Source: Stramenopiles sp. TOSAG23-6 (lineage: Eukaryota; Sar). From it: a stretch of 20,190 nt of DNA. This document shows, one piece after another, positions 1-20,190 of the stretch (position 1 is its first letter; every line of letters begins with the position of its first letter). Both the position numbers and the translations under genes were made by a program. A model generated the notes under the pieces. The model searched no databases, was not told the origin of the DNA, and saw nothing but the letters and a program-made list of their open reading frames with translations. The DNA lies in the NCBI GenBank assembly GCA_900128565.1, contig LT636040.1:1-20190 (forward strand). Reading direction: 5' to 3'.

Positions 1-55
1 TCGTACGAAATTTTGTACCTAACAAATTTCGAATTTAATTTTTTTTACAATACAT
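1..55 (+). repeat. 3' part of introner-like intron in the ZW10 gene (copy 1, cut by the window edge)
   Basis: Only the 3' part is visible. It holds the family core (positions 1-17), the CCTAAC branch-site-like motif (18-23), a T-rich stretch and the family 3' end ACAATACAT (47-55). The intron end is placed at 55 by homology with the complete copies. The next base is G, as in three of the four complete copies. The copy lacks the usual TGAAA/TTTCA hairpin but has a different one, AAATT (24-28) pairing with AATTT (32-36) across a 3-nt loop. From the branch A to the intron end is 33 nt, as in the other copies. The donor lies outside the window. Confidence 0.75.
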
Positions 56-3846: not shown

Positions 3847-4238
3847 TTCAAAGAATGAACAATAGTAGACTATATACAACCTATAGACGCAATTTTCTTT
3901 CTAACCATACCTCGTTATTTATTTTTATCAACTGTTGCTATACTCTAAGGGGTAACCTCGATTCCGAGTCGATTTTTTTCTTCTTTTTTCCAAACTTCGT
4001 CAAACAAACAACAACAAAACGCAAAAGATAAAAAAAAAAAGAAAAAAAAAAGACTAACCCTAACCCTAGCGCTAGCTGCCCAATCATCTTCTAAAATTAA
4101 AATAAATTGGATGACTTGACTTGACTGGCTACTAAATATTTCTGTGTACACCTCCAAAGTTCTACCTTTCTTCCACAATAATCTTAACAAAACAACCTCT
4201 TTTATACTTTTCTCCTCGTGGTGCGCTTCAAGATACCG
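3847..4238. promoter_or_regulatory. Divergent intergenic region with A-tracts and telomere-like repeats
   Basis: This 392-bp gap separates two divergent start codons, so it should hold both promoters and 5' UTRs. It contains two adjacent A10-class tracts (4030-4051), then two CCCTAA telomere-type units (4054-4069), then the perfect 10-bp palindrome CTAGCGCTAG (4066-4075). I see no credible gene. Open frames here are interrupted, low-complexity and without homology that I recognise. Confidence 0.6.
4054..4069. repeat. Interstitial telomere-like CCCTAA units
   Basis: The sequence CTAACCCTAACCCTAG carries two consecutive CCCTAA-type units directly after a 22-bp A-rich tract. It lies in the shared promoter region of two divergent genes. 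It could be a telobox-like promoter element or a relic of telomere repeat insertion. Confidence 0.6.
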
Positions 4239-6430
4239 ATGATTCCGACATCCACTCAAGTTGACGAGAGTGTGATTTTAAATCGGAGCGTTGACAAAGT
4301 ATGGTGTCTTGTTCGAAAATTAGATTTTGCTACGTTATTTCCTGGTTTGGTATCAAAAAGCGTTAGAAACAATGACAAGGTCAACTCAAATGTTATCGTA
4401 ACTTTTGTTGACGGAACAATCTGGGAAATTCGTATGACAGGCATGAATGATTTATCACATAGTGTAAGTTGGGAGCTAGTTTCTGCGAATCCACCCACGT
4501 CATATTTGTCCCGTGTTGATACTATCTCTGTGCAACGCGTTACTGCGAAGTCATTGGAGTCTTCTTTTCTCAAGTGGTCGACGACGTTCTCGTCTGATTC
4601 AGGCGTATCTGTTATACAAGATTGCAAGCTAAAGAAACGCGAAGCCCTACAAAAGCTGCGTTTACTTTTTAGTTGTGATATGCAATTATCAAATATTGAT
4701 TTGATGGATGGTGCTGCGTGCGGCTTTGACATTGTTATTGTCTGCACTTCTAATACTGACATGGAAAACTTCTGGCAACTTCGTTTAAACCTTGCACGCG
4801 GAAGTATTATTCCAATTAATACTATTGTTGTAGTAGTAACCGAGGATTGGGATGGTGGTGCAGGAAATGGACTAGGAACTTTGTATGCATTTCAAAAAGC
4901 TGTGAAAAAAGCTGAAACTGTAAATGGAGTAAATCTCAATACCTTATTGAGTGAAGGCGCTTCTGCAGCTTTGTACCACACTGCTGGCAAAGGTACCCGT
5001 CTCGCCCCTCTTCCTGGTAGTGAATGTAACAATAAACCTGCAGTAAAACTTCCTGGTCTTGTGCGTTTACAGGGAGTTACTACTAATATACCTACTAAAA
5101 CCCCGGTCACAATATTAGAGTCTGTTATTCGACAAACGGGAGTATGTATGTTTTGATTTTTTTTCAATTTCGAATTTATTTTTCGTACGAAATTTCGTAC
5201 CTAACGCTTTTAATGTTTGAAATATTTTTTCATAATCCATATTCTACATCAAGACCTGGCAGACTTTCTGTATTTTGGGGTGATCAATTATTTATTCCAT
5301 CAGTTAAAATGGATTATACTCCAGTTCATCATGCAGATATTTTGTGTATGTTGGGACCAATGCCAAGTGCTAATGAGTGGAAATCTCGTGGTCTCTCTGC
5401 TTTTGGTCTGATTGCAGTCAATTCCAATGGCGATGTACAATTTCATGATGAATTTCAAATTCAAGTTTTTTTTTCGTACGAAATTCCGTACCTAACGATT
5501 TTTTTCATAAAATATTTTTTCACAATACATGCAGCTCAAGTAGAAAAAGTAGATTATCGTACTGCAACAAACTTATTACAAAATATGGGAAAAGTTGTTT
5601 CTGTTGGTACCAGTCTTGGATCCTTTTCTGTATCGTTTGCGTTATTAAATGAGTTAATGATGGAATTTAAGAAGGAATTATCTACAAAAATTGGTAAATT
5701 AGATTCTGATCCTCATTGGTGGATGCCTCTAACACTTCCACGCAGTGGTTATATAACGTTGATGCAACGAAAAGGAATGTCTAATGCTGGTGAACATTGG
5801 GACAGAATTGCAGTAATGAAAAAACGTTTCATGAATAAAGAATTATTGAGTAATTCTCAACACTTTGGATTGTTTGGTGCGGTAGACGTTGGCTCTGAAC
5901 CATTTTGGTGGGATTATGGACAGCTGCATAGCTACATGAGTAATAACATAAAACTCACACAATGCAGTATTGAGTCAGATGCTATGAAAAAGTTTTTTGG
6001 TGTTGATAGTAGTGTAGGTGGTTCTGTTGAACTTATCTCGTCAAAATCTAAGGGCTTATCTCTCAACTCAGTTGTTGTGGACTCTACAGTAGGTAACTTA
6101 AATGTTGAAAATTGCGTTTTATTCAACGTCTCAGCAACTTCATTGCGAGGTAAAAATTGTCTTGTATATAATCTGTACGATTCTTCACTCGAAGGGCTTG
6201 ATCTTCCAGATGGTACCGTATTGTGTGACATTCCTATTCCAAATGAAAAGAGGTTTATACGTATGCAAAGTACGATAAGTGTCAATGCTGGAACAATTTG
6301 GAAGGAAATTGTTCACGACAATGAAAAGTCTTTTGAAGAGATCTATTTGACAAATAACAATGTGTCTTTAGCAGATGCCGAAAAATTATGTGAAATAAAA
6401 CGCAAGGCTATAAGGGCAAAGTTGATGTAA
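4239..6430 (+). CDS. SRPBCC-domain / sugar-nucleotidyltransferase-like fusion protein, three exons
   Basis: Exons are 4239-5145, 5241-5434 and 5531-6430, joined to 666 codons plus stop. The frame upstream of 4239 has only GTG, so the ATG at 4239 is the start. Residues of about 8-140 look like an SRPBCC/START-like ligand-binding fold (VDESVILNRSVDKVWCLV at the start, FLKWSTTF near the end). A nucleotidyltransferase-like part follows, with GAGNGLGTLYAF (about 206-217), the nucleotide-binding-type loop AGKGTRLAPLPG (about 249-260), NNKPAVKLP just after, and GRLSVFWGDQ in exon 2. The C-terminal quarter has a repetitive beta-strand pattern like a left-handed beta-helix cap. The general resemblance is to UDP-sugar or GDP-fucose pyrophosphorylase-type enzymes, but I cannot assign the sugar or the nucleotide. 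Both introns are AT-ended introner-like elements. The second intron is 96 nt and stop-free in frame, so its retention would insert 32 hydrophobic residues. Confidence 0.72.
5146..5240 (+). repeat. Introner-like intron, copy 2 (95 nt, GT...AT)
   Basis: The donor is GTATGT and the 3' end ATAATCCAT. The core palindrome is at 5181-5200 and CCTAAC at 5200-5205. Hairpin 1 pairs GTACG (5185-5189) with CGTAC (5196-5200). Hairpin 2 pairs TGAAA (5218-5222) with TTTCA (5228-5232). Removing 5146-5240 joins ...QTGV to YSTSRPGRLSVFWGDQ in frame (phase 1). The only alternatives that keep the same residues shift the border by one or two bases (TG...CA or AT...CC), and neither is GT-AG. The nearest AG lies 15 nt further on, and using it would delete conserved-looking coding sequence. 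Confidence 0.8.
5435..5530 (+). repeat. Introner-like intron, copy 3 (96 nt, GT...AT)
   Basis: The core is at 5472-5490, CCTAAC at 5491-5496 and the 3' end ACAATACAT at 5522-5530. The best donor is GTACAA at 5435, which joins GLIAVNSNGD to AAQVEKVDY in phase 0. A start at 5447 (GATGAA) is also in frame, but it adds four residues and has no GT. Hairpin 2 is weaker here (AAAA/TTTT only). Using the nearby CAG (5532-5534) as acceptor would create an immediate in-frame TAG. The element is a multiple of three and lacks stops, so it can be read through. Confidence 0.72.
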
Positions 6431-6570
6431 AAATACTGTACTTTATAGTACATAGTAGAAATATTTTTAAGGTTGAAAAAACAGTTGCCGCGATTTAACT
6501 TGAATAAAAGCATTTTATTTTTTATACTCTACCAAAACATACTTGAAGTCATATATCATACACTAAAGAA

Positions 6571-7176
6571 CTAGATGGCCTCAAAATCAAACGCACAATC
6601 AACTGCGTCATCATTACCATCACCTGGAATACCATTCAGTTCACCAATCTTAGCTGAGTCAGGAAGCTCACCATACAATTTGAGGTTACGTGCCTCATCA
6701 GCGGAATATTTCTGAATTACATCTGCTTTTGAATCTTGAAATTCACGAAGCCCAATAAGTATAATATCACCAACTCCTACCCAAACACGCTTTCTCATTT
6801 TACCTCTGATGTGACACAAACGTTTCTTTCCGTCAAAGCAATAAGCTTCAAGACGACCATTTCCAAGCATTTTCAATACTTGTGCGTATTCTGTAATAAG
6901 TGAAGGTAAATTTCAAAAATATAGGTTAGCATATAAAGAAAGGGTAAATGACGTTTCATTAAAGAAGATGAGATGAAATTTAAAGAATATTTCATCCAAA
7001 ATTCATGTGAAAGTACAAACAAAAAAATTTGGACAGTACTGATGGAAGAAGGACTAGATGTGTATATGTGACGTACCTTGACCGTGTTCTTTGAATTCTA
7101 ATTCACGCCTTTCATCCTCGTTTTCATTCTTTCCACGACGTCTGTTCTTACCGCCTTTTCCTTTGTTTTTTGGCAT
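6571..7176 (-). CDS. EIF1A: Translation initiation factor eIF1A, two exons
   Basis: Exons are 7176-7077 and 6890-6571 on the minus strand, joined to 139 codons plus a TAG stop. The protein starts with the basic tail [18 protein letters not shown], followed by the OB-fold with [40 protein letters not shown] and [16 protein letters not shown]. It ends in an acidic tail ([13 protein letters not shown]). This is the full eIF1A layout; the family is usually about 140-150 aa. eIF1A binds the A site of the 40S subunit and promotes scanning and start-codon selection. The intron is an ordinary GT-AG one. The gene is convergent with the nucleotidyltransferase gene (140 bp between stops) and divergent from the TPR gene. 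Confidence 0.95.
6891..7076 (-). other. Canonical GT-AG intron of eIF1A (186 nt)
   Basis: On the minus strand the donor is GTACGT and the acceptor TTATTACAG. It splits the codon for Glu between GHGQ-type and EYAQVL-type conserved segments of eIF1A (HGQ|EYAQ). A CTAAC branch-site-like motif has its second A 35 nt before the intron end. No introner core is present. It serves as an internal reference for normal splice borders in this genome. Confidence 0.92.
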
Positions 7177-7514
7177 TGTGGGTGGGAAAAGTAATAATAA
7201 AATTAGTCGCAGACAACACAAGCGCACCAATACACAGAGGTGAATCAAGACGATCAAGTCAGAGTCTCAGAGACTGACCGGTTTCGCAAATTTGTGACAC
7301 GTGGCATTACAAAGGAAAAAGGTCAACTACTACAAATAGCAAAAAGAGGTGATCAGGACTGAGGAGGTAGTATATTCTAACAAATTGAAATTTTGAGATT
7401 CATTGAATTTTATCGAAAAGAGTCAACAACTCGCTTTTCAGTGAGCATTGTGAGAAACTACTCATCAAAAGATCAAAAACTACAACGCATTTTCCACGCT
7501 GAGAACAAAAAAGT
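7177..7514. promoter_or_regulatory. Divergent intergenic region between eIF1A and the TPR gene
   Basis: This 338-bp space lies between two start codons and should hold the 5' UTRs and promoters of both. No open frame of note, no RNA gene and no obvious repeat is visible. Confidence 0.5.
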
Positions 7515-8565
7515 ATGACAGAACTTCAAGATATTTCAACTGTACGATCTGAAGGCAATGTTGCTTTCAAGGGTGGTGAATATGCAAAGGCGCTAACGAA
7601 GTATACAAAAGCGCTTGAACTTGCTACCAACGACAAATTATTTGAAGACAGACACAAATTATTAAGCAACCGAGCTGCTACCCATATGAAATTGAGGCAA
7701 TACAATGAAGCTTTAGCGGATGCAACAGCAGCAGTATTAGAAAAGCCTACATGGGTAAAAGCATACCATAGAAAAGCACTCGCCTACTTAGCTTTGGAAG
7801 AACCAGGAAATGCTCGCGAAGTGTATCTCGAATTTCAGAGATTAGCAGGAGATTCTGAAAATATATTTGTTAAAAAACAGTTGCAAAAGCTTCAAGATAA
7901 AGTGCCAATACAATCCGTAGATGAATTTCTCGACCTATTCAAGTCAATTCGTTCAGAGACACGTCTTCGATTATTTACATTAGCCTCTTTCTGGAATCGC
8001 TCAAAGCGTCATGAGCGTTTAGCTATATTAAAAAGAATTATGACTTTAATCGGTGGAGAGAGTGGACCATCACCAGCTGTGGAAAAATTTCGTTCGGAGG
8101 AAATGAATCGTATGTTTTATATGAATTTCTAATTTAATTGTTTTTTCATACGAAATTTCGTACCTAACGATTTTTTTTGAAATATTTTTTCACAATACAT
8201 GTCTTCCTCTTGAAATTTATAAAGACTTGACCTTGCCCTCAACTTGGTTAAAATGGTATCAGTTATGCACGAAATCTGAAAAGGTGACTATATTGGATAT
8301 GATATGGCGTGAGTGTACTGCCGAAGAGCACAATTTCATCATTGTTGATCTCCAGGCATTTTTTAGTGTAACAGGGTCTACAAAAAAATCAGTTGTTCAA
8401 AGGAAAAACATGAAATTGAAAAATCCAAAAGTTCTTTCAAAAAAAGAAGTTATCGTGCCATGCAGCAACCCTAACCCTAATCCAAAAGTTCTTTCAAAAA
8501 AAGAAGTTATCGTGCCATGCAGCAACCCTAAGGAGAAATCTAATAAAATTAACTCAAATAGATGA
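7515..8565 (+). CDS. TPR-domain protein with Hsp70/Hsp90-type carboxylate clamp, two exons
   Basis: Exons are 7515-8109 and 8201-8565, joined to 319 codons plus TGA. Residues of about 8-110 form three TPR motifs resembling HOP/STI1 and related co-chaperones. The clamp positions are filled as R11 (usually Lys), N15, N52, K82 and R86, which predicts binding to the EEVD tails of Hsp70 or Hsp90. Past about residue 130 there are two similar helical segments, FLDLFKSIRSETRLRLFTLA...W and WLKWYQLCTKSEKVTILDMI, possibly a diverged internal duplication. I do not recognise this region. Between them lies an introner-like intron. Unspliced, the frame ends at a TAA eleven codons past the splice point. The C-terminal tail is Lys-rich and contains a 19-residue exact tandem duplication with CCCTAA units at the DNA level. 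Confidence 0.8.
8110..8200 (+). repeat. Introner-like intron, copy 4 (91 nt, GT...AT)
   Basis: The donor is GTATGT and the 3' end ACAATACAT. The core is at 8144-8163 (with CATACG in place of CGTACG), CCTAAC at 8163-8168. Hairpin 2 pairs TGAAA (8178-8182) with TTTCA (8188-8192). The downstream coding frame (CLPLE/RLPLEIYKDLTLP...) requires exon 1 to end after one base of a codon. The only GT that satisfies this is at 8110, giving ...EEMNR|LPLEIYKDL. Splicing gives the Arg codon as C|GT. Confidence 0.8.
8422..8530 (+). repeat. 57-bp tandem duplication inside the TPR coding sequence
   Basis: A 57-bp unit starting at 8422 recurs at 8479, identical over about 52 bp and then diverging. It encodes NPKVLSKKEVIVPCSNP twice. 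The junction contains AACCCTAACCCTAA (8467-8480), a telomere-like stretch that is also in frame. The length is a multiple of three, so the frame is preserved. The near identity implies recent duplication. Confidence 0.9.
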
Positions 8566-8775
8566 TTGGAAGGGTTACAAAGAAATTTTAATTTGAGTTT
8601 TAATTTGAGTTTTGTGTAAGTTGAATAATTTTATAACAGTTTTCAACATAAAAACAAAGAAAATATTCCTGATAATTTTGTGTTGAAGCTCTCAAACGAA
8701 ACAGATGATGCTGTAGTCTGTAATAGCGGAACTTCAAATAAATTTATAGTAAAGTAGCTATATATAGTATTGTTT

Positions 8776-9384
8776 CTATTGTACCACACAATTTTCTGAC
8801 ATGGCAGTGACAAGTGAATGACAACCATCACTAAATATTTTCTCCTGCTTTTCTTCATGTTTTTTGCATGGAACACTTTCTACACTCAAAATATTGCCAG
8901 TGCTGTTTTTGATTCTTTGATTTTTATTACAAAGGATATTTTCCCCAGCCTCGCGAGTTGAGTTATTCATATTATTGTTTGAAAATACAAGTTGTGTAGT
9001 TGAACTGTCTATAGTAGTTTGCCAGCGATGAAGCAGTTCTAATTCTTGGGACTTTGGTGAAAGTGAAGCAAGTGATATAGGAGAAGCCAAACGCTCACGT
9101 TTACGTACTCGGTGAATTAGTCGCTCAAGTCGGGTTTTGCGTCTTATTTCTGCTTCTTCATCAAAAGTGGAATTTTCTACTTGTTCAAAAAGTTCCGTCT
9201 CACTAGATGCACAATAATCAAAATCTTCTATCTCTCTATCAGAATATGTAGGTCTATCAATATCATGTTTCGGAGTTCCTCCAGCTATCACTCCCTGATT
9301 CTCATCTAAATCAGGCAATGTTTTCGTAATTGTTGGAACAATATGTGGAACCTGAATATTCCCTGAAACTTCTCGAAGTGCCAT
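8776..9384 (-). CDS. Hypothetical protein, 202 aa
   Basis: I do not recognise this protein. The open frame continues upstream of 9384 in a low-complexity Phe-rich stretch, but the ATG at 9384 (MALREVSGNIQVPHIV) is the more credible start. It is hydrophilic with no signal peptide or membrane segment. The middle is acidic then strongly basic (FDEEAEIRRKTRLERLIHR and RVRKRERLASPISLASLSP), which suggests a charged helix followed by a Ser/Pro linker with possible SP phosphosites. The C-terminal part is Asn/Ser/Thr-rich and probably disordered. It is convergent with the TPR gene and divergent from CCZ1. The codon pattern and lack of an overlapping better frame support a real gene. Confidence 0.6.
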   Translation of the reverse strand: MALREVSGNIQVPHIVPTITKTLPDLDENQGVIAGGTPKHDIDRPTYSDREIEDFDYCASSETELFEQVENSTFDEEAEIRRKTRLERLIHRVRKRERLASPISLASLSPKSQELELLHRWQTTIDSSTTQLVFSNNNMNNSTREAGENILCNKNQRIKNSTGNILSVESVPCKKHEEKQEKIFSDGCHSLVTAMSENCVVQ

Positions 9385-9631
9385 TTTGATTGAGAAGTCA
9401 AATATAATAATATTATTACGCAGGAATAGACTAGAAGAAATAAAAAAATTTGATGTGTGGTGCGGTACCCGGTACTGTACTTTAAAAAAAAAAATCAATC
9501 TGAAATCGCGCGGATGATGGACACTTGACTTGATGATGATATTTTATCCAATATAATATAATATTGTAGAGAGAAGAAGAAGAAGAAGAAAGAGCTAAAA
9601 AAAGCAACCAATAATAAGTGCTTCCTTTAAA
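9385..9631. promoter_or_regulatory. Divergent promoter region with GAA microsatellite
   Basis: This 247-bp space separates divergent starts. It contains an ATCCAAT box-like site and an AT-rich block (9546-9567), followed by a GAA/AAG microsatellite (9570-9592) just upstream of CCZ1. Which of these has promoter function is not determinable from sequence alone. Confidence 0.4.
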
Positions 9632-11542
9632 ATGAGCATAGCTGAAATTGACCCTCCTATAGATTGTTGTTTCATATTTGATAGAAGCCTTTCTCCTGAA
9701 GGAGAAAATGCAAGCATTTTGGAACAGTCTGCTCAGCTTTTGTTTTATACTCCCAAAGAGACACCTTTGAAGGACAAGTTAGGGCGAGTGAACCTTGCTG
9801 CAGGTTTTATAGATTTCCATCGAACTTTTGCCGACTCTTCTGCTTGTATTCACACGGTGGAAACGTCAAATCTTTGTTGGGGCTTTTTAAAATCTGAGCC
9901 TGGTGTCTGGCTTGTAATGGTTTTACAAAAAACTTATTTTNTTAGTATCAGTCAATTTAGTAAAAACTCTGGAAGACTTTCTTATCGTTCAGACAAAACT
10001 GCGGATAATTCTTTAAAATCATTCATTGGAGGGTTAGGAATATCAGTGGCGAAATCTAGTGAAAGCCACAGTAAAAAAAAATCGCTTAGGACTAGTTCTG
10101 CCAACAGTCGTCGTGGGGCTGTTCTTGCCAAATCTGATGATGCAACAGAAACCAGATTTTCTCCTCGAATTCTCAGTGCAGTTTTGAAAAGTTTATATTC
10201 ACGTTACACCCTTCTCCATGGAAGTATAACATCAGCCGTTCATGTTCCAAATATATTAAATAGTCAAGTAATTGCTCTGCAACGTTTACGGAAAATCGTT
10301 CGGAAAGCTAAAGAAGCAAAAAGTGCAGTTCTATTAGCAACTGCGACGAAAACGGAACAGCGAACCAAGCAAATTGAAAACTTACCATCTAAGATTAAGG
10401 AATTAGAAATAGCCGAAATGGCATCACCTCTAATACCACTTCGAAGTAGTTTATTTTCTTCATTTTGTTCAAGTATCAATGATTTAGTCTTCCCATTGCA
10501 TTTTGTGCATGGGCTTTCAACATGCAAATACTTTTCACTGAACAGAGTGACATATTTAGCATCACAATATCTCATTTATCAAATGAAAACAACATTTACA
10601 AGTATAAAACACTACGCATTCTTGTATGACCTCCATTTAGTACATAATGACGTACCTGATGTGTTTTTTGGTACTGAAACTGACAGTGAAACGTATAATA
10701 CTATGAATATTTTATATCATTATTTACACTCTCCATATTTAAAAAATTTAATACACCATGCCCAACAAATGTCATTACCGTTTCTATTAAATTCTAATGG
10801 ACTTATTTACTCACATCCGGTGTTCCATCGTGAGCTATGTTCACCCAGTAAAATACCAAAGTATACGGAACTTGGTAATTTATTGATTTATCAGGAATCT
10901 CGCATAACTATAGTACTTATTGTTGATAAGATGATTGATTTTAAAGTAAATAATAGAAATAGTGTTGACTTTTGTAACCAAATTACAAATTTCCTTAGAA
11001 AAGATACGAAGCAGCTAAATTCTATGATTGTTGATGAATTAGATAGACAAAGTCATCAACATTCTGCTCCATTTTCATCATTTATATCAGCAAATTCAGC
11101 CAATGCTTCTTTAGCTCATCATGGATTTCAGTCTCCTGAACTTGTTTCATTGATGCCACACCCAAAGAAAGACATAACAAAAAAGCCAGCTTACATATAC
11201 TTTAGTGGTAGCAATTGTGCTATTAAGATGGTCGGGTTTTCAACTCCGAAAAGTAGAAAAATAGATAATGGCAAATTAGTAACAATATCAATGAAGGATT
11301 TAAATTTAGGTATAAAGCAGTGGCAGTTTGAAGGGTTTGATGCAATATTTAATGGAATAAGTGAAGATTTAGTAGGAACCTATATAAAGATTGAAGGTAC
11401 AGGTTGGATTATTTTTCGAATGTGTGGTAGACGTTTGTTATATACAGTTTTTGGTAAAGATAGTAAAACCGAGTCTCTTTATAATGCCGAAAAACAACTA
11501 ATTAATTTATGCCAGAATTGTTTTTTGAATATATTCTTGTAA
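9632..11542 (+). CDS. CCZ1: Vacuolar fusion protein CCZ1 (Mon1-Ccz1 Rab7 GEF subunit)
   Basis: A 636-aa intronless gene matching CCZ1, the partner of MON1. Together they activate Rab7/Ypt7 on late endosomes, autophagosomes and the vacuole or lysosome. The first longin-like region is visible: FIFDRSLSPEGE near the N-terminus, then LLFYTP, FHRTF, and EPGVWLVMVLQ (about residues 89-99). The block ILSAVLKSLYSRYTLLHG (from about residue 180) matches the next conserved segment. The C-terminal third (YIYFSGSNCAIKM and WIIFRMCGRRLLYTVFG) fits the last longin/roadblock-like portion. One base is ambiguous (n at 9941, first base of codon 104). Human CCZ1 is about 480 aa; the extra length is mostly a Lys/Ser-rich linker near residues 125-180 and a central insertion. 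It shares a divergent promoter with the 202-aa unknown gene. Confidence 0.85.
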   Translation: MSIAEIDPPIDCCFIFDRSLSPEGENASILEQSAQLLFYTPKETPLKDKLGRVNLAAGFIDFHRTFADSSACIHTVETSNLCWGFLKSEPGVWLVMVLQKTYFXSISQFSKNSGRLSYRSDKTADNSLKSFIGGLGISVAKSSESHSKKKSLRTSSANSRRGAVLAKSDDATETRFSPRILSAVLKSLYSRYTLLHGSITSAVHVPNILNSQVIALQRLRKIVRKAKEAKSAVLLATATKTEQRTKQIENLPSKIKELEIAEMASPLIPLRSSLFSSFCSSINDLVFPLHFVHGLSTCKYFSLNRVTYLASQYLIYQMKTTFTSIKHYAFLYDLHLVHNDVPDVFFGTETDSETYNTMNILYHYLHSPYLKNLIHHAQQMSLPFLLNSNGLIYSHPVFHRELCSPSKIPKYTELGNLLIYQESRITIVLIVDKMIDFKVNNRNSVDFCNQITNFLRKDTKQLNSMIVDELDRQSHQHSAPFSSFISANSANASLAHHGFQSPELVSLMPHPKKDITKKPAYIYFSGSNCAIKMVGFSTPKSRKIDNGKLVTISMKDLNLGIKQWQFEGFDAIFNGISEDLVGTYIKIEGTGWIIFRMCGRRLLYTVFGKDSKTESLYNAEKQLINLCQNCFLNIFL

Positions 11543-11744
11543 TAATATAAAAAAGTGAATGCTTGTATTGTAGGTTTAAAATTTAACAATCAAAAGTTGT
11601 ATATCATTAGAGATTTTGAAGTAAATATATTTATTTCCATTGTGCAATTTTTATTTTCTATGTAAGAAACATTATCTGTACGTCTAATTAATAGTATAAT
11701 TAAAAATATTATCATGTCCTAAATTTCAATATTCATCATGAAGT

Positions 11745-13010
11745 TTACAGTTCATTTTCTTCATTCCAGTATGCTTCAGCTTCTTCATATATTTTGTTGA
11801 CCATAGCTAGGCGTGTTGAATGCCCAGAAGTTGATTTAGACGGATCATGTAGCAAAAGTAATTGATTGTACCGTTCTTTTCGCGCTGCGGCATCTTCGGG
11901 CCATTCTTCAATCAGTGTTGTAGTCTCTATCGAGTCCCAATCACTAGCCATCACATCCGTTGATTTAAGTTTGATTTGAATTCCACTCTTTGCCATGTCT
12001 TTAAGCTCTTCTCCAGCAGATTTACCAATCATTGCAGTAAATATTGTGACTTCATCTTCGAGTATATCCCCACCAGCCATTGTAACAAGAACATCACTGT
12101 TATTCACTACTAATACCCCAATTGCTCCAGCAGCTTCCGCGTATTCAGATTTTTTTGTAAACGAACAACCTCCTCGCCAAATTAGAGCAACCTTACCTTT
12201 CAAGTCACTCGAGTTCGTCAACTCTTCACAACCATTCATTGGTTCAGAACGAACAAGTTCGACCGCATGTGTAGGATAGTTTGGAATAGGTCCACCAAAT
12301 TCAGCTCGGAGATATTCGAAACTGGAATTTTCTGCTGTTGTGAGGAGACCTCCGTCAGCAGAGAGCATTTCAACACCATCATAGTGGACTTTTTCATCTA
12401 TGTTATGTTTATCATTGTATTGCTGACTACATGGACCTGTCAGATATGTTCCTTCTTTAGACCACTTTTTAGCAACGACTGCGCCTAAGACAATTGTTTC
12501 TCTGGATAAAATTTTCTTTAGCGCCGAGCCTGCGGATTGTCGTATGGCCGTAACGGGAATTGTAATTTCCGGTTCATGTTCCTCAGTGACATTCATAAAT
12601 GCTGCCGGTAAACGAGGAATAGCTTGATCGCTATTTATAAGTATCATACCAACAGCGCCGGCGGATTGTGCATAAAAAGCTTTGTCTGCAAAAGAACACT
12701 TCCCACGGTCTACAAGAAGGATCGCACCTGAGGCAACAGCAGGGTCTGGCTTTTCACAACAATTAACTGGCTCAGACATTCGAATTGGTTCGTACTTACA
12801 ATGTAATGATGAACCGAATAACGCCTTAACAAATTCATATGAACTTCCTCCACCAAGAAGCTCTATTGATCCCCATGCTTCACTGCGGTCCTTATTAGCA
12901 AGTGTACTAATACGTACAGCCGGGGTCTCTGCTTGTTCATTATCTTCAGCGGAAACAACCATATTTCGTCGCACAATAACAATTGCTAATAAATAGCTCA
13001 ACTTTAACAT
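11745..13010 (-). CDS. Secreted or luminal protein with two tandem protease-associated (PA) domains
   Basis: A 421-aa intronless gene. The N-terminus MLKLSYLLAIVIV...VVSAED is a plausible signal peptide, although it carries two Arg residues in the middle. Two homologous PA domains follow. The first is centred on DRGKCSFADKAFYAQSAGAV (about 101-120) and the second on WRGGCSFTKKSEYAEAAGAI (about 278-297), each followed by an (I/V)N(S/N) strand end. PA domains bind peptides or substrates in vacuolar sorting receptors, SPPL2 and subtilases. Here there is no protease, RING or membrane segment, so the protein is predicted soluble in the secretory pathway or outside the cell. Several N-glycosylation sites (NVT, NSS) fit that. 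The last 70 residues are charged and helical, without a recognised domain. Precise role unknown. Confidence 0.82.
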   Translation of the reverse strand: MLKLSYLLAIVIVRRNMVVSAEDNEQAETPAVRISTLANKDRSEAWGSIELLGGGSSYEFVKALFGSSLHCKYEPIRMSEPVNCCEKPDPAVASGAILLVDRGKCSFADKAFYAQSAGAVGMILINSDQAIPRLPAAFMNVTEEHEPEITIPVTAIRQSAGSALKKILSRETIVLGAVVAKKWSKEGTYLTGPCSQQYNDKHNIDEKVHYDGVEMLSADGGLLTTAENSSFEYLRAEFGGPIPNYPTHAVELVRSEPMNGCEELTNSSDLKGKVALIWRGGCSFTKKSEYAEAAGAIGVLVVNNSDVLVTMAGGDILEDEVTIFTAMIGKSAGEELKDMAKSGIQIKLKSTDVMASDWDSIETTTLIEEWPEDAAARKERYNQLLLLHDPSKSTSGHSTRLAMVNKIYEEAEAYWNEENEL

Positions 13011-13527
13011 TTTCTAGCAAGCCTTGTATATATTTATTAATTCTCTGTTGGGACTTTCAAGAAAAAGTAATTGGAGAAAATGAAATCTCTCTCAGAGTAT
13101 CTTCTTCTATATTTATCGAGGAAAAAAAACGTATCCTCTGGATTCCTCTCTCTCGAATTTCGAAATCTTCGATGGCGATAAGCAGGTTTGTAATTTTCAC
13201 TGTCAAATTTGAATTTTTTCGAAAAGCAAATTTGAAAATTCATTTCCAGATTCCCAAATTTTGTTACAGAATTTTGTACCAATCGGCAATAATTCAAATC
13301 ATTCAAATCTGGCCATAAAGCCAATTCTTTCAATTCAAACAAAAAAGAAAGTGAAGAGAGAATTTCTTCAAAACGACATTCATAATTTCGTTCTTTCAGA
13401 TTTGTCCAACAAATTTTCGCATTTGAAGCATTAGAAACTCAAATAGACAACAAAGTATCACTGTCGTTGATCCAGGTGGTTGAATTTGTTGTTTTTTGTG
13501 TTTGCATAACGATAGCTAATACTCAAT
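13011..13527. promoter_or_regulatory. Divergent intergenic region, no supported gene
   Basis: This 517-bp space lies between the PA-protein start and the FHA-RING start. It contains several short frames on both strands (for example 13037-13342 minus), but none has an ATG start or recognisable protein character. It is rich in AAATTTGAA-type short inverted repeats near 13200-13260. It probably holds both promoters. An unannotated 5'-UTR intron of the FHA-RING gene is possible. Confidence 0.5.
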
Positions 13528-15282
13528 ATGTCTTCTGAAGTTCAAACTCCAATCTGCTCGAATACTTCTTGTCTCCACCAGTTGGTACTTCGAGATAACA
13601 ATTCAAAAGTTGAACCAAAGATCATTCATCTTCATAGTAGTGGGAAAAGTTCATTTAAAGTAAGTTATTGTTTTCATACAAATAATCATTTTTCTCCTTC
13701 ATTCTTGTTTATCTTAAACTTTTTTTTATCTTCATTTGTTGTTACTTCGATTACACTTCGTTTCTGTACCTATTTTTTCAGATAATTTGTGTAACTTAAC
13801 GAAGCAAGTAATTTTAAAAAAATTCATTCAATACAGCTTGGAAGGAGTCGGTCTTCAGCTGATGTTGTCTTTAGTTCTAAAGGAGGTCCCCTAATGATTT
13901 CTAGAGTTCACGCAATACTTTCTCGGTCTAAAGCATCTGAAAAGATTTCCGAGAATAATACTTTAATTGGCAATAGTATCAACAGTTTAAATAGTAAATC
14001 ATCACTGGAAGTTTCTAAGAGTACTGTATGGTGGAAGATTGAAGATAATAATAGTAGAAATGGTATGTTTGTCAACTCTATTAAGTTAGCTGAGGCGACT
14101 CTGTCTCATGGAGACATAGTGACTTTTGGTGGGGGAGGCACTCTCCCTTACGGTACCCATAAAAACAACATTGAATCTGATTATCAGTATGTATTTTTAA
14201 AAGTTTGCTCTAATCAAGATGAAGATAATATATCAACAAACGAATATAAGGAAAAGAATAGCAAGAAAAATATGTTTCAAAGAAATTCTTTCCCGACAAC
14301 GGGCTCTTCAAGTCGTCGGAAGCGGCCACTTACTGAAAAGATTGATCTTTCCTCGAAGCGTCCTAGACTTGATACATCATGCATTGTTTCAAATACGATG
14401 AATATACATAAAAAACATGAAATACCAATAACGAAGGAAGGTGATAACGCGATAGCTACAGGGATTTGCGGGGATGGAGTCTCACTAAATTCACAGAAAA
14501 ATGTTGATTTATCAACTAAAAGCACTGCATTAGTTCCTTTTTCTTCTGTGCTTCCCCAAGGTACTGTCAAAGTTAATTGTTTGCAAGAAGAATTGACGTG
14601 CCCGATATGTTTGGATTATTTACTTCAAGCTCACACCCTAGGATGTGGTCATTCACTATGTATGCTTTCAAAATTGAATTTCAAATTTTTCAAATTTATT
14701 TATTTTCGTACCAAATTTTGTACCTAACATTATTTTTTGGAAATATTTTTCCACAATATATGTGCTCCGTGTATTGTAAAAACGCTTGAAAACAAACGAG
14801 CTTGTCCTTGTTGTCGTGCACCAACAACCAAGCCACCTATACGTTCACGTGTTCTAGATAATGCAATTAACAAATTATTGAAACAAGAAGGATGCGAGTC
14901 AAAATATTCTGAGTACCTACACCGATTAAAAAAATGGGAAAAAGATATCAGTTTGAGAAAAGCCCAAGCAAAACAATTGAAAAGAGTTATATGTAACGCA
15001 AAGCGAGAAGGAAAGCATTTCCTCTGTATCACTGATAAATGGACAAGTAATGAACAACAAGTTTTTCAAAAAGGTGTTGCTCTTTATCATGGTGTTGCTC
15101 GAGTTGTATACTGCAACACCACAAGTTTGACAGCAGAGTATATAGAAAGTGCTTCAAAAGAAGAATTAAAGCTCGCTAGTTTAAATGTCGGTGTGGTAAA
15201 TAAGAAATCAGTATCAACCTTAGATGCATCAACAATGCGATCATTGTTACACATGTTCAGATTATATGGTGGCCGTGAATAA
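13528..15282 (+). CDS. FHA-RING E3 ubiquitin ligase-like protein, three exons
   Basis: Exons are 13528-13659, 13837-14659 and 14762-15282, joined to 491 codons plus TAA. The N-terminal part is an FHA phosphothreonine-binding domain: LGRSRSSADVVF after exon 1, ISRVHA, then SRNGMFVN and HGDIVTFGGG. A basic disordered linker (RRKRPLTEK...SSKRPR) could be a nuclear signal. A C3HC4 RING follows: CPICLDYLLQAHTLGCGHSL, CAPC and CPCC, all eight ligands present once the second intron is removed. This layout resembles CHFR and RNF8, which act in mitotic checkpoint and DNA-damage signalling. The C-terminal 150 residues (Lys-rich helix, then LYHGVARVVYCNT) are unrecognised. The first intron is canonical GT-AG and the second is an AT-ended introner-like element inside the RING. 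Confidence 0.82.
13660..13836 (+). other. Canonical GT-AG intron of the FHA-RING gene (177 nt)
   Basis: The donor is GTAAGT and the acceptor CAATACAG, in phase 0 within the FHA domain (SFK|LGRSRSS). A CTTAAC branch-site-like motif has its second A 37 nt before the intron end. Its 3' end CAATACAG is strikingly close to the introner 3' end CAATACAT, differing in the last base. Confidence 0.9.
14660..14761 (+). repeat. Introner-like intron, copy 5 (102 nt, GT...AT)
   Basis: The donor is GTATGC and the 3' end ACAATATAT. The core is at 14704-14723 (CGTACC variant) and CCTAAC at 14723-14728. Hairpin 2 pairs TGGAAA (14738-14743) with TTTCCA (14748-14753). Removing it restores HSLCAPCIV in the RING finger, with the first Cys codon split as T|GT. 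Five bases (TATGT) are shared at both ends, so the exact cut is ambiguous within that stretch. None of the allowed positions is GT-AG, and GT...AT is the only one with a GT donor. Confidence 0.85.
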
Positions 15283-19698: not shown

Positions 19699-19750
19699 TA
19701 TGGAAAAATATCTCGTAGGTAGAATGATAAATAATATATAACTTATCTTT

Positions 19751-20190
19751 TGAATAAAAACAAAAATACTGCAAATAATCTGTACAATATGTCAATGGTA
19801 TTTGAAATAAATAAACATTATTATTCTCGTAAAAGCAAACATCATTCATCTTTTGAATAAAAACAAAAATACAAGCAATAATATGTACAATATGTCAATA
19901 GTATTTGGAATAAATAAACATCTTTATCACATAAAAGCAAACATCATTCATTGTTTGAATAAAAACAAAAATACGTTAAATAATCTGTACAACATGTCAA
20001 TAGTATTTGAAATAAATATACATTTTTTTCATATAAAAGCAAACATCATTCATTGTTTGAATAAAAACAAAAATACTGTAAATAATCTGCACAATATGTC
20101 CATAGTATTTAAAATAAATAAACACATTTATCACGTAAAAGTAAACATCATTCATCTTTTGAATAAAAACAAAAATACCACCAATAATCT
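19751..20190. repeat. 102-bp tandem repeat array, continuing past the right edge
   Basis: A unit beginning TGAATAAAAACAAAAATAC starts at 19751, 19854, 19956, 20058 and 20160, giving spacings of 103, 102, 102 and 102 bp. That is four full units and the start of a fifth. Units differ by scattered substitutions. Each carries AATAAA-like hexamers and ATAAAAGCAAACATCATTCAT-type sequence. No stop-free frame persists through the array. It begins about 50 bp after the EGF-protein stop, so the first unit may also supply that gene's polyadenylation signal. Confidence 0.93.

Follow-up and report, generated by a model that had tools for sequence, protein, structure and literature searches.

Here, we describe a family of probable introners whose members mostly end in AT rather than AG, found in the genome assembly of Stramenopiles sp. 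TOSAG23-6 (GenBank GCA_900128565.1), a marine unicellular eukaryote that probably belongs to the uncultured MAST-3 stramenopiles. Four complete copies and one partial copy lie in the first 20,190 nucleotides (nt) of the forward strand of contig LT636040.1, the stretch that we refer to as the window. Across the assembly there are what look like more than 1000 related, apparently mobile introns with a GT start and, mostly, an AT end. Judged by their sequence, orientation and effect on the reading frame, they are very probably introners, i.e. short non-autonomous mobile elements that occupy many genes in the sense orientation and that the spliceosome would excise from the pre-mRNA as introns. An earlier note on the window had read them as an introner family, and this reading is supported by our analysis: the family is large and sense-oriented, and the reading frame is restored only at the borders that the note had claimed. 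Introners are already known, and a 3' AG is near-universal in spliceosomal introns; what is new here is a family with mostly non-AG 3' ends. In its full form our explanation is tentative, and we give it somewhat short of an even chance. It holds that most introns come from one mobile family, that their last dinucleotide consists of duplicated bases, and that the 3' site is recognised through the octamer CACAATAC, placed at a fixed spacing from the branch site, the AG rule having been dropped and the GT kept.

Architecture and distribution of the family

All copies in the window lie on the forward strand. Copies A (5146..5240; 95 nt, GTATGT...AATCCAT, phase 1) and B (5435..5530; 96 nt, GTACAA...ACAATACAT, phase 0) interrupt the same pyrophosphorylase-type gene, which we take to be UGP3-like. 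Copy C (8110..8200; 91 nt, GTATGT...ACAATACAT, phase 1) is found in a gene for a tetratricopeptide repeat (TPR) protein, identified as such by Pfam, and copy D (14660..14761; 102 nt, GTATGC...CAATATAT) in an FHA-RING gene, within the RING finger (SLC/APC, where the slash marks the junction). The partial copy E (1..55) consists of the 3' part only, as the contig starts inside its core, upstream of a ZW10-like reading frame. On re-reading the sequence, we located the four complete copies and the partial one with the ends that the earlier note had given them. Its description of the introns as near-identical was overstated, since the median pairwise identity over 53 copies is 71% (5-95% range, 59-84%).

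The complete copies in the window share a layout in which a GTA(T/C) start is followed by the palindrome GTACGAAATTTCGTAC joined to CTAAC, a region rich in T, and either CACAATACAT or a near variant. In copy A, the core (5184..5205) consists of the 16-bp palindrome and then the branch-like CTAAC, and the T run and 3' end motif occupy 5225..5240 (family consensus TTTTTTCACAATACAT); the cores of B (5475-5496), C (8147-8168) and D (14707-14728) are that of copy A with changes. The four complete copies and the partial one derive from an element that is ~95 nt long and reads GTAtGTTTT ... CGTACGAAATTTTGTACCTAAC ... TTTTTTCACAATACAT. The element carries a donor, GTATGT or GTACGT, a branch motif, TACCTAAC, and a T run with the octamer CACAATAC. 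Among the 53 copies found to be in frame (see below), lengths range from 85 to 129 nt, and the intron end follows the branch motif at 31-55 nt (median 36). ATAY is strongly conserved directly 5' of the last two intron bases, and a terminal inverted repeat of 4-6 nt, (AT)GTAT...ATAC(AT), was seen by eye on the consensus, where an introner of DNA-transposon type would have 6 nt or more. In the flanking exons of 86 copies, clear conservation is limited to AT at positions -2..-1 and, weakly, GT(A) at positions +1..+3, and similarity otherwise ends at the borders.

The earlier note had proposed a genome search as a check on whether more than a few copies exist, and this search revealed a large family. 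The 22-base core, with up to three mismatches, has 988 + 931 = 1919 matches in the 8.03-Mb, 408-contig assembly, compared with 0 + 0 for the reversed control. This total is somewhat inflated because contigs C2, C13/C14 and C37 appear mirrored or duplicated, as in amplified single-cell DNA. Double counting of the palindrome affected 0 of the 32 core matches in 200 kb of contigs that were chosen blind to the element; such contigs held 33 good full copies in 200 kb, which extrapolates to ~1300 per assembly. The exact pattern GTATGTTTT-N25-55-GTACCTAAC has 700 matches genome-wide. The copies sit in different, unrelated genes, and their number suggests that hundreds of genes have been hit. Relative to the coding strand, 71 of 86 copies are in the sense orientation and none is called antisense, with 15 unclear.

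Two features of the assembly touch on the family. Contigs C57, C82, C132, C160 and C214, as well as the window, start inside an introner core or within ~30 bases of one, as if the repeat had broken the assembly. At positions 1355-1554 of locus L028, two introners abut end to start, one having seemingly inserted at the border of the other.

Many of the counts that follow are based on two sets of copies. For the first, 129 candidates were reduced to 86 good copies by score limits that reward GT and AT: 49 from loci or window picked by the core, the 4 of the window's own and 33 from the blind-chosen contigs. L019, which duplicates the window, was excluded. L025 was also omitted from this set with all its 7 rows, 4 of which would have passed, since the copies there overlap. 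The second set came from an end-caller that is blind to the last two bases and comprises 102 rows, L025 included; its 11 mis-calls, at GAAATAT/TT, were dropped both for the frame test on 57 copies and for the dinucleotide test on 91 copies. Reading frames were called by a codon model for which 84 long reading frames (L031-L050 and the window) served as the training set; of the 86 good copies, 56 could be assigned a confident frame on either side.

Placement of the intron borders

Under the codon model, 53 of 56 copies leave the frame intact when they are cut at the GT and at the end of the motif. Sliding the end by one or two bases leaves 2/56 and 1/56 in frame, respectively, and the end-caller blind to the last two bases places 52 of 57 copies in frame. 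This restoration is no fixed-length effect because, in the 53 in-frame copies, both the phases (20, 20 and 13 for phases 0, 1 and 2) and the intron lengths modulo 3 (17, 13 and 23 for 0, 1 and 2) vary. If the element is left in, a frameshift or stop results in 48 of the 53. A test that does not use the codon model gave a similar picture: once the copies are joined out, 93 of 103 junctions fall within reading frames of at least 90 amino acids, with a margin of 60 nt or more to the frame ends, compared with 40/103 and 37/103 when the end is slid by one or two bases. At a looser margin of 15 nt, for which there was no control, 98 of 103 junctions lie inside such frames, some of which hold four junctions.

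Alignments with homologous proteins agree with these borders. In the UGP3-like product, all 59 database proteins among the matches listed are without an adjacent gap at the junction of copy A (V/YSTSRPGR), a protein model of GSMAST32 excepted, and 58 of the 59 are without a gap at that of copy B (NGD/AAQVEKV), where P0050 is one residue shorter. The exception, EukProt model GSMAST32.ASY1.ANO1.78.1 (P0001), is 91% identical to the product over 77% of the query and has the same exonic residues in the compared stretches, but lacks YSTSR and has FFFRTKF in place of AA, whereas the other 59 proteins listed keep the length of the GT...AT product. For SHMT, where the multiple alignment was unusable at the first junction (a 6-column query gap, with 120/120 rows flagged, compared with 1/120 at the second), we used pairwise BLASTP, and the 81% match to P0122 runs through 488 columns, across both junctions, without a gap. 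The corresponding model, GSMAST32.ASY1.ANO1.1608.1 (P0155), departs at both, meaning that the two public GSMAST32 models compared differ from their homologues at 4 of 4 junctions. No same-species protein with the predicted junctions was present among the matches listed in three protein searches, besides these differing models.

In a thiamine-dependent enzyme, two junctions are gapless against a solved chain, and the third lies past the aligned stretch. The single junction in a diaminopropionate ammonia-lyase is gap-free, with a one-residue gap ~8 residues before it in the best match. Pfam PF13923 matches residues 269-306 of the FHA-RING product, corresponding to profile positions 2-40 of 40, and so spans the junction of copy D. 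At the junction of copy C, EEMN/RLPL aligns without a gap to EHMN-SMTT in P0241, the only one of 23 proteins found with the TPR protein that covers this junction well. Searches of the PDB with reading frames that we took for PIG-A and SGT1 returned nothing useful.

The last two bases and competing explanations

The 53 in-frame copies end in AT (46), AG (3) and AA, GT, TT and AC (1 each), while the 52 in-frame copies from the blind end-caller end in AT (41), AG (4), GT (3), TT (2), AA (1) and AC (1). The canonical 3' AG is therefore restricted to 3/53 and 4/52 copies. Of 349 genome-wide matches to the pattern GTACCTAAC-N15-45-CACAATAC, 249 have AT directly after them, 11 have AG and 89 have other dinucleotides, the last being an upper figure, as the pattern cannot separate true intron ends from other octamers. 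The exon before GTATGTTTT also tends to end in AT, as it does in 531 of the 700 exact donor-branch matches. Outside AT/AT pairs, exon and intron end in the same dinucleotide in 6 of 91 copies (AG/AG 3, AA/AA 1, TG/TG 1, TT/TT 1) when 0.9 are expected (2 of 10000 shuffles), or in 8 versus 2.2 expected if the mis-calls are left in. That non-AT ends tend to copy the exon dinucleotide suggests that the intron receives its last bases from a target duplication of 2 bp, and a duplication of this size with a strong preference for AT is the likeliest origin of the last two bases. At L016 1461-1553, L013 1232-1331 (minus strand) and L049 (minus strand, core 5121), an exon AG is paired with an intron AG, and these members of the family are canonical GT-AG introns.

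From these patterns we infer spliceosomal removal, mobility, target duplication and a choice of 3' site by octamer and branch distance. The element would insert as XX-[GTATG...AATAC]-XX through a 2-bp target duplication, AT being strongly preferred, and would be spliced as GT...XX. An ordinary spliceosome could carry out the first splicing step, and the second would take place at the end of CACAATAC-XX with no need for AG. The octamer and the branch distance would then select the 3' site in place of AG, perhaps with an altered U2AF1 as in Fritillaria (portions of PMC13326754). Recognition of the octamer or of distance is suggested because four in-frame copies have an AG 4-7 nt before the end that is used, and a cut there breaks the frame in 4/4.

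Several observations weigh against this explanation. Three of 56 copies are out of frame, or 5/57 with the blind end-caller; of the misfits, L049 5121 would keep the frame with a cut at the AG that lies two bases before the called end, L034 5482 would run into a TGA at once and L033 2208 is unexplained. One copy in a conserved gene, L003 363, starts with GG, not GT. Among 36 copies with an exon end other than AT, 24 nonetheless end in AT themselves, so the element itself may contribute some of the AT ends. The suggested duplication is just 2 bp long, and three of the six agreements are AG/AG, a combination for which splicing alone could select. Finally, searches of the assembly for U2 and U6atac gave no match, with the controls also silent.

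The way in which the copies spread is where an alternative is best sustained. Reverse splicing, rather than a DNA transposase, could have inserted units of exactly GT...AT, without any duplication, the exon AT then being a target preference. Such an origin is compatible with the splicing part of our explanation, and we regard it as unlikely, though worth serious consideration. It is in keeping with the absence of any copy called antisense, although selection could simply have removed antisense copies from exons, with a terminal inverted repeat of just 4-6 bp, and with the AT that is kept in those 24 of 36 copies. The match of non-AT ends to the exon dinucleotide beyond chance, as reported above, instead argues for duplication.

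A second alternative accepts the same introners and places them in another register, with AT-GTATG...AATAC as the intron, the second AT exonic, the classic AT-AC pair as its ends, and removal by the major or the minor spliceosome. Exon and intron have equal end dinucleotides in 55 of 91 copies, 49 of them AT/AT, and GT...XX and XX...AC give one product in these because both end in the same two bases. This applies to copies A, B and D, in which exon and intron both end in AT and the sequence cannot separate GT...AT from AT...AC; the conservation of ATAY before the last two bases would also fit an AC end. Copy C, whose exon ends in TC, gives EEMNRLPL in the GT...AT register and EEMKCLPL in the register two bases upstream. 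The closest homologue, P0241, has M-N, which is obtained solely in the GT (or +2) register, and this one distant protein lends weak support to GT...AT. We prefer GT...AT, since the GTATGT donor is strongly conserved (the copies having been partly selected for it) and is placed as U1 and U6, which would set the cut at such a donor, would cut it; under AT...AC the donor would fall two bases 5' of the conserved GTATGT. U12-type introns have a minor-type donor and a branch site ~10-20 nt from the end, whereas the present elements start with (AT)GTATGTTTT and carry their branch motif 31-55 nt from the end. AT...AC is accordingly improbable. The borders claimed in the earlier note are certain except for the play that the short junction repeats allow, but its conclusion that GT...AT is the sole solution with a common donor does not hold for A, B and D, where AT...AC is equivalent.

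It is far less probable that these are ordinary GT-AG introns, with the AG in the apparent exon or upstream in the element and the AT borders an illusion created by short protein indels. The P0001 and P0155 models do place the borders elsewhere, and a few copies end in AG (3/53; 11/349). Between the branch motif and the end, AG occurs in 15 of the 53 copies, and the 15 AGs compare with 23.3 +/- 3.7 in base shuffles, a mild depletion from which some AG avoidance seems to remain. The first AG 3' of the branch motif, however, is in frame in 19/56 copies and the first AG from the end onward in 21/56, close to the chance level of about one third, and use of the AGs 4-7 nt before the end would break the frame in every case, as described above. 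P0001, in turn, departs from the length shared by its 59 listed relatives through the loss of YSTSR and the gain of FFFRTKF. Borders ending in AG were rejected on the basis of this near-chance in-frame rate and of the homologue alignments.

Equally, we give next to no weight to removal from DNA, like that of the internal eliminated sequences of ciliates, rather than from RNA: the elements are indeed short, AT-rich, flanked by dinucleotide repeats, precise and frame-restoring, but GTATGT, CTAAC and the T run are conserved spliceosomal signals, the bias to the sense orientation (71/86, none called antisense) would not be required, and DNA elimination of the ciliate type is not known to occur in stramenopiles.

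Ordinary introns, other features and known systems

Two ordinary GT-AG introns had been reported in the window, and both were recovered, one by homology and the other by frame only. The eIF1A intron (6891..7076, minus strand; 186 nt, GTACGT...CTAAC...TTACAG) yields a spliced protein that is gapless at KEHGQ/EYAQV against a solved eIF1A chain. The other (13660..13836, plus strand; GTAAGT...ATACAG) belongs to the FHA-RING gene, is placed by sequence and frame, and has the FHA domain (PF00498) just downstream. The non-AG end can be regarded as a property of the family, as previously claimed, because an exact GT-AG intron, that of eIF1A, shares the window with it; an AT that is fixed throughout the family is not borne out, given 46/53 or 41/52 copies. 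In 220 kb, three ordinary introns were pointed to (eIF1A, L036 2396 and the FHA intron, which was found by eye). A scan by coding score gave mostly noise and was too weak to count such introns. Ordinary GT-AG introns seem to be few.

The window also contains repeats of other kinds. In the TPR gene, 8422-8531 is an exact tandem duplication of a 53-nt stretch with a period of 57, which carries the telomere-like CCCTAACCCTAA in the coding frame. In 220 kb, the telomere-like CCCTAACCCTA is present at 19 interstitial sites, against 0.0 expected from base shuffles, with some sites double-counted and L034 in a mirrored contig. The sites are at 4057-4067 in the window and in L034, L036, L038, L039, L041, L044, L045, L047, L048 and L050; among telomere-like sites, only that in the TPR gene was flagged as lying within a local duplication. 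At the end of the contig, after an EGF-domain gene, 19718-20190 holds four tandem copies spaced by 102-103 nt.

U2AF1 was sought through zf-CCCH, which gave 8 matches at 6 places in this partial assembly, and the two sites that were read, in L051 and L052, appear unlike U2AF1. The match in L051 is presumably RBM26/27-like, and that in L052 was set aside as unrelated.

A free-living protist with an estimated 1000 introns at least, which have a strong donor and branch site and mostly no AG, would offer a direct test of how the 3' splice site is selected, whether through U2AF1, second-step factors or distance. It would also allow one to ask whether mobile introns can alter the splicing rules of their host. 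For annotation, families of this kind can be overlooked or misrepresented when gene models or introner surveys presuppose GT-AG.

A literature search, conducted mostly outside subscription papers, returned no report of the present family or of MAST-3 introners among the matches listed. The word 'intron' occurs 0 times in the main text of PMC8163842 and twice in the available part of PMC5778133, neither time concerning introners, and MAST has 0 mentions in the main text of PMC9860276. The comparisons below refer to portions of each paper. Introners are described from Micromonas, Aureococcus, Florenciella and other protists and are common in aquatic ones. Many protists have introners that carry inverted repeats and target duplications, and in some families the duplicated target bases provide one of the splice sites (Gozashti et al. 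2022, PMC9860276). Like these, the present family consists of many similar introns in unrelated genes of one genome, that of an aquatic protist; unlike them, it has AT as its main 3' end, which is not described for any family in the portions of that paper considered here. That survey began from annotated introns, and the two annotated proteins compared here have other borders.

Non-canonical ends have also been described for other introns. The non-conventional introns of diplonemids, for which an origin from elements resembling miniature inverted-repeat transposable elements has been proposed (PMC12621601), and those of euglenids, which have a stable structure and are without conserved borders or a U1-like donor (PMC6221363), share such ends with the present introns but differ from them in that ours have a spliceosomal donor and branch motif. 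Amoebophrya introners have highly variable borders, and their inverted repeats measure 8-20 nt and their direct repeats 3-5 nt (PMC7789003). Like the present family, they belong to a marine protist, have non-AG ends and are bordered by direct repeats. The family described here differs in its mostly GTA(T/C)GT donor, its branch motif, its T run and its mostly AT end, and its inverted repeats are 4-6 nt in the consensus by eye rather than 8-20 nt, longer imperfect repeats not having been searched for. In Fritillaria, more introns end in AT than in any other dinucleotide, with 44% in F. pellucida and 34% in F. borealis, and introner transposons are discussed there as one source of weak splice sites (PMC13326754). 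Fritillaria, however, is an animal with many kinds of intron terminus and a duplicated U2AF, whereas the stramenopile has one dominant family with a conserved donor.

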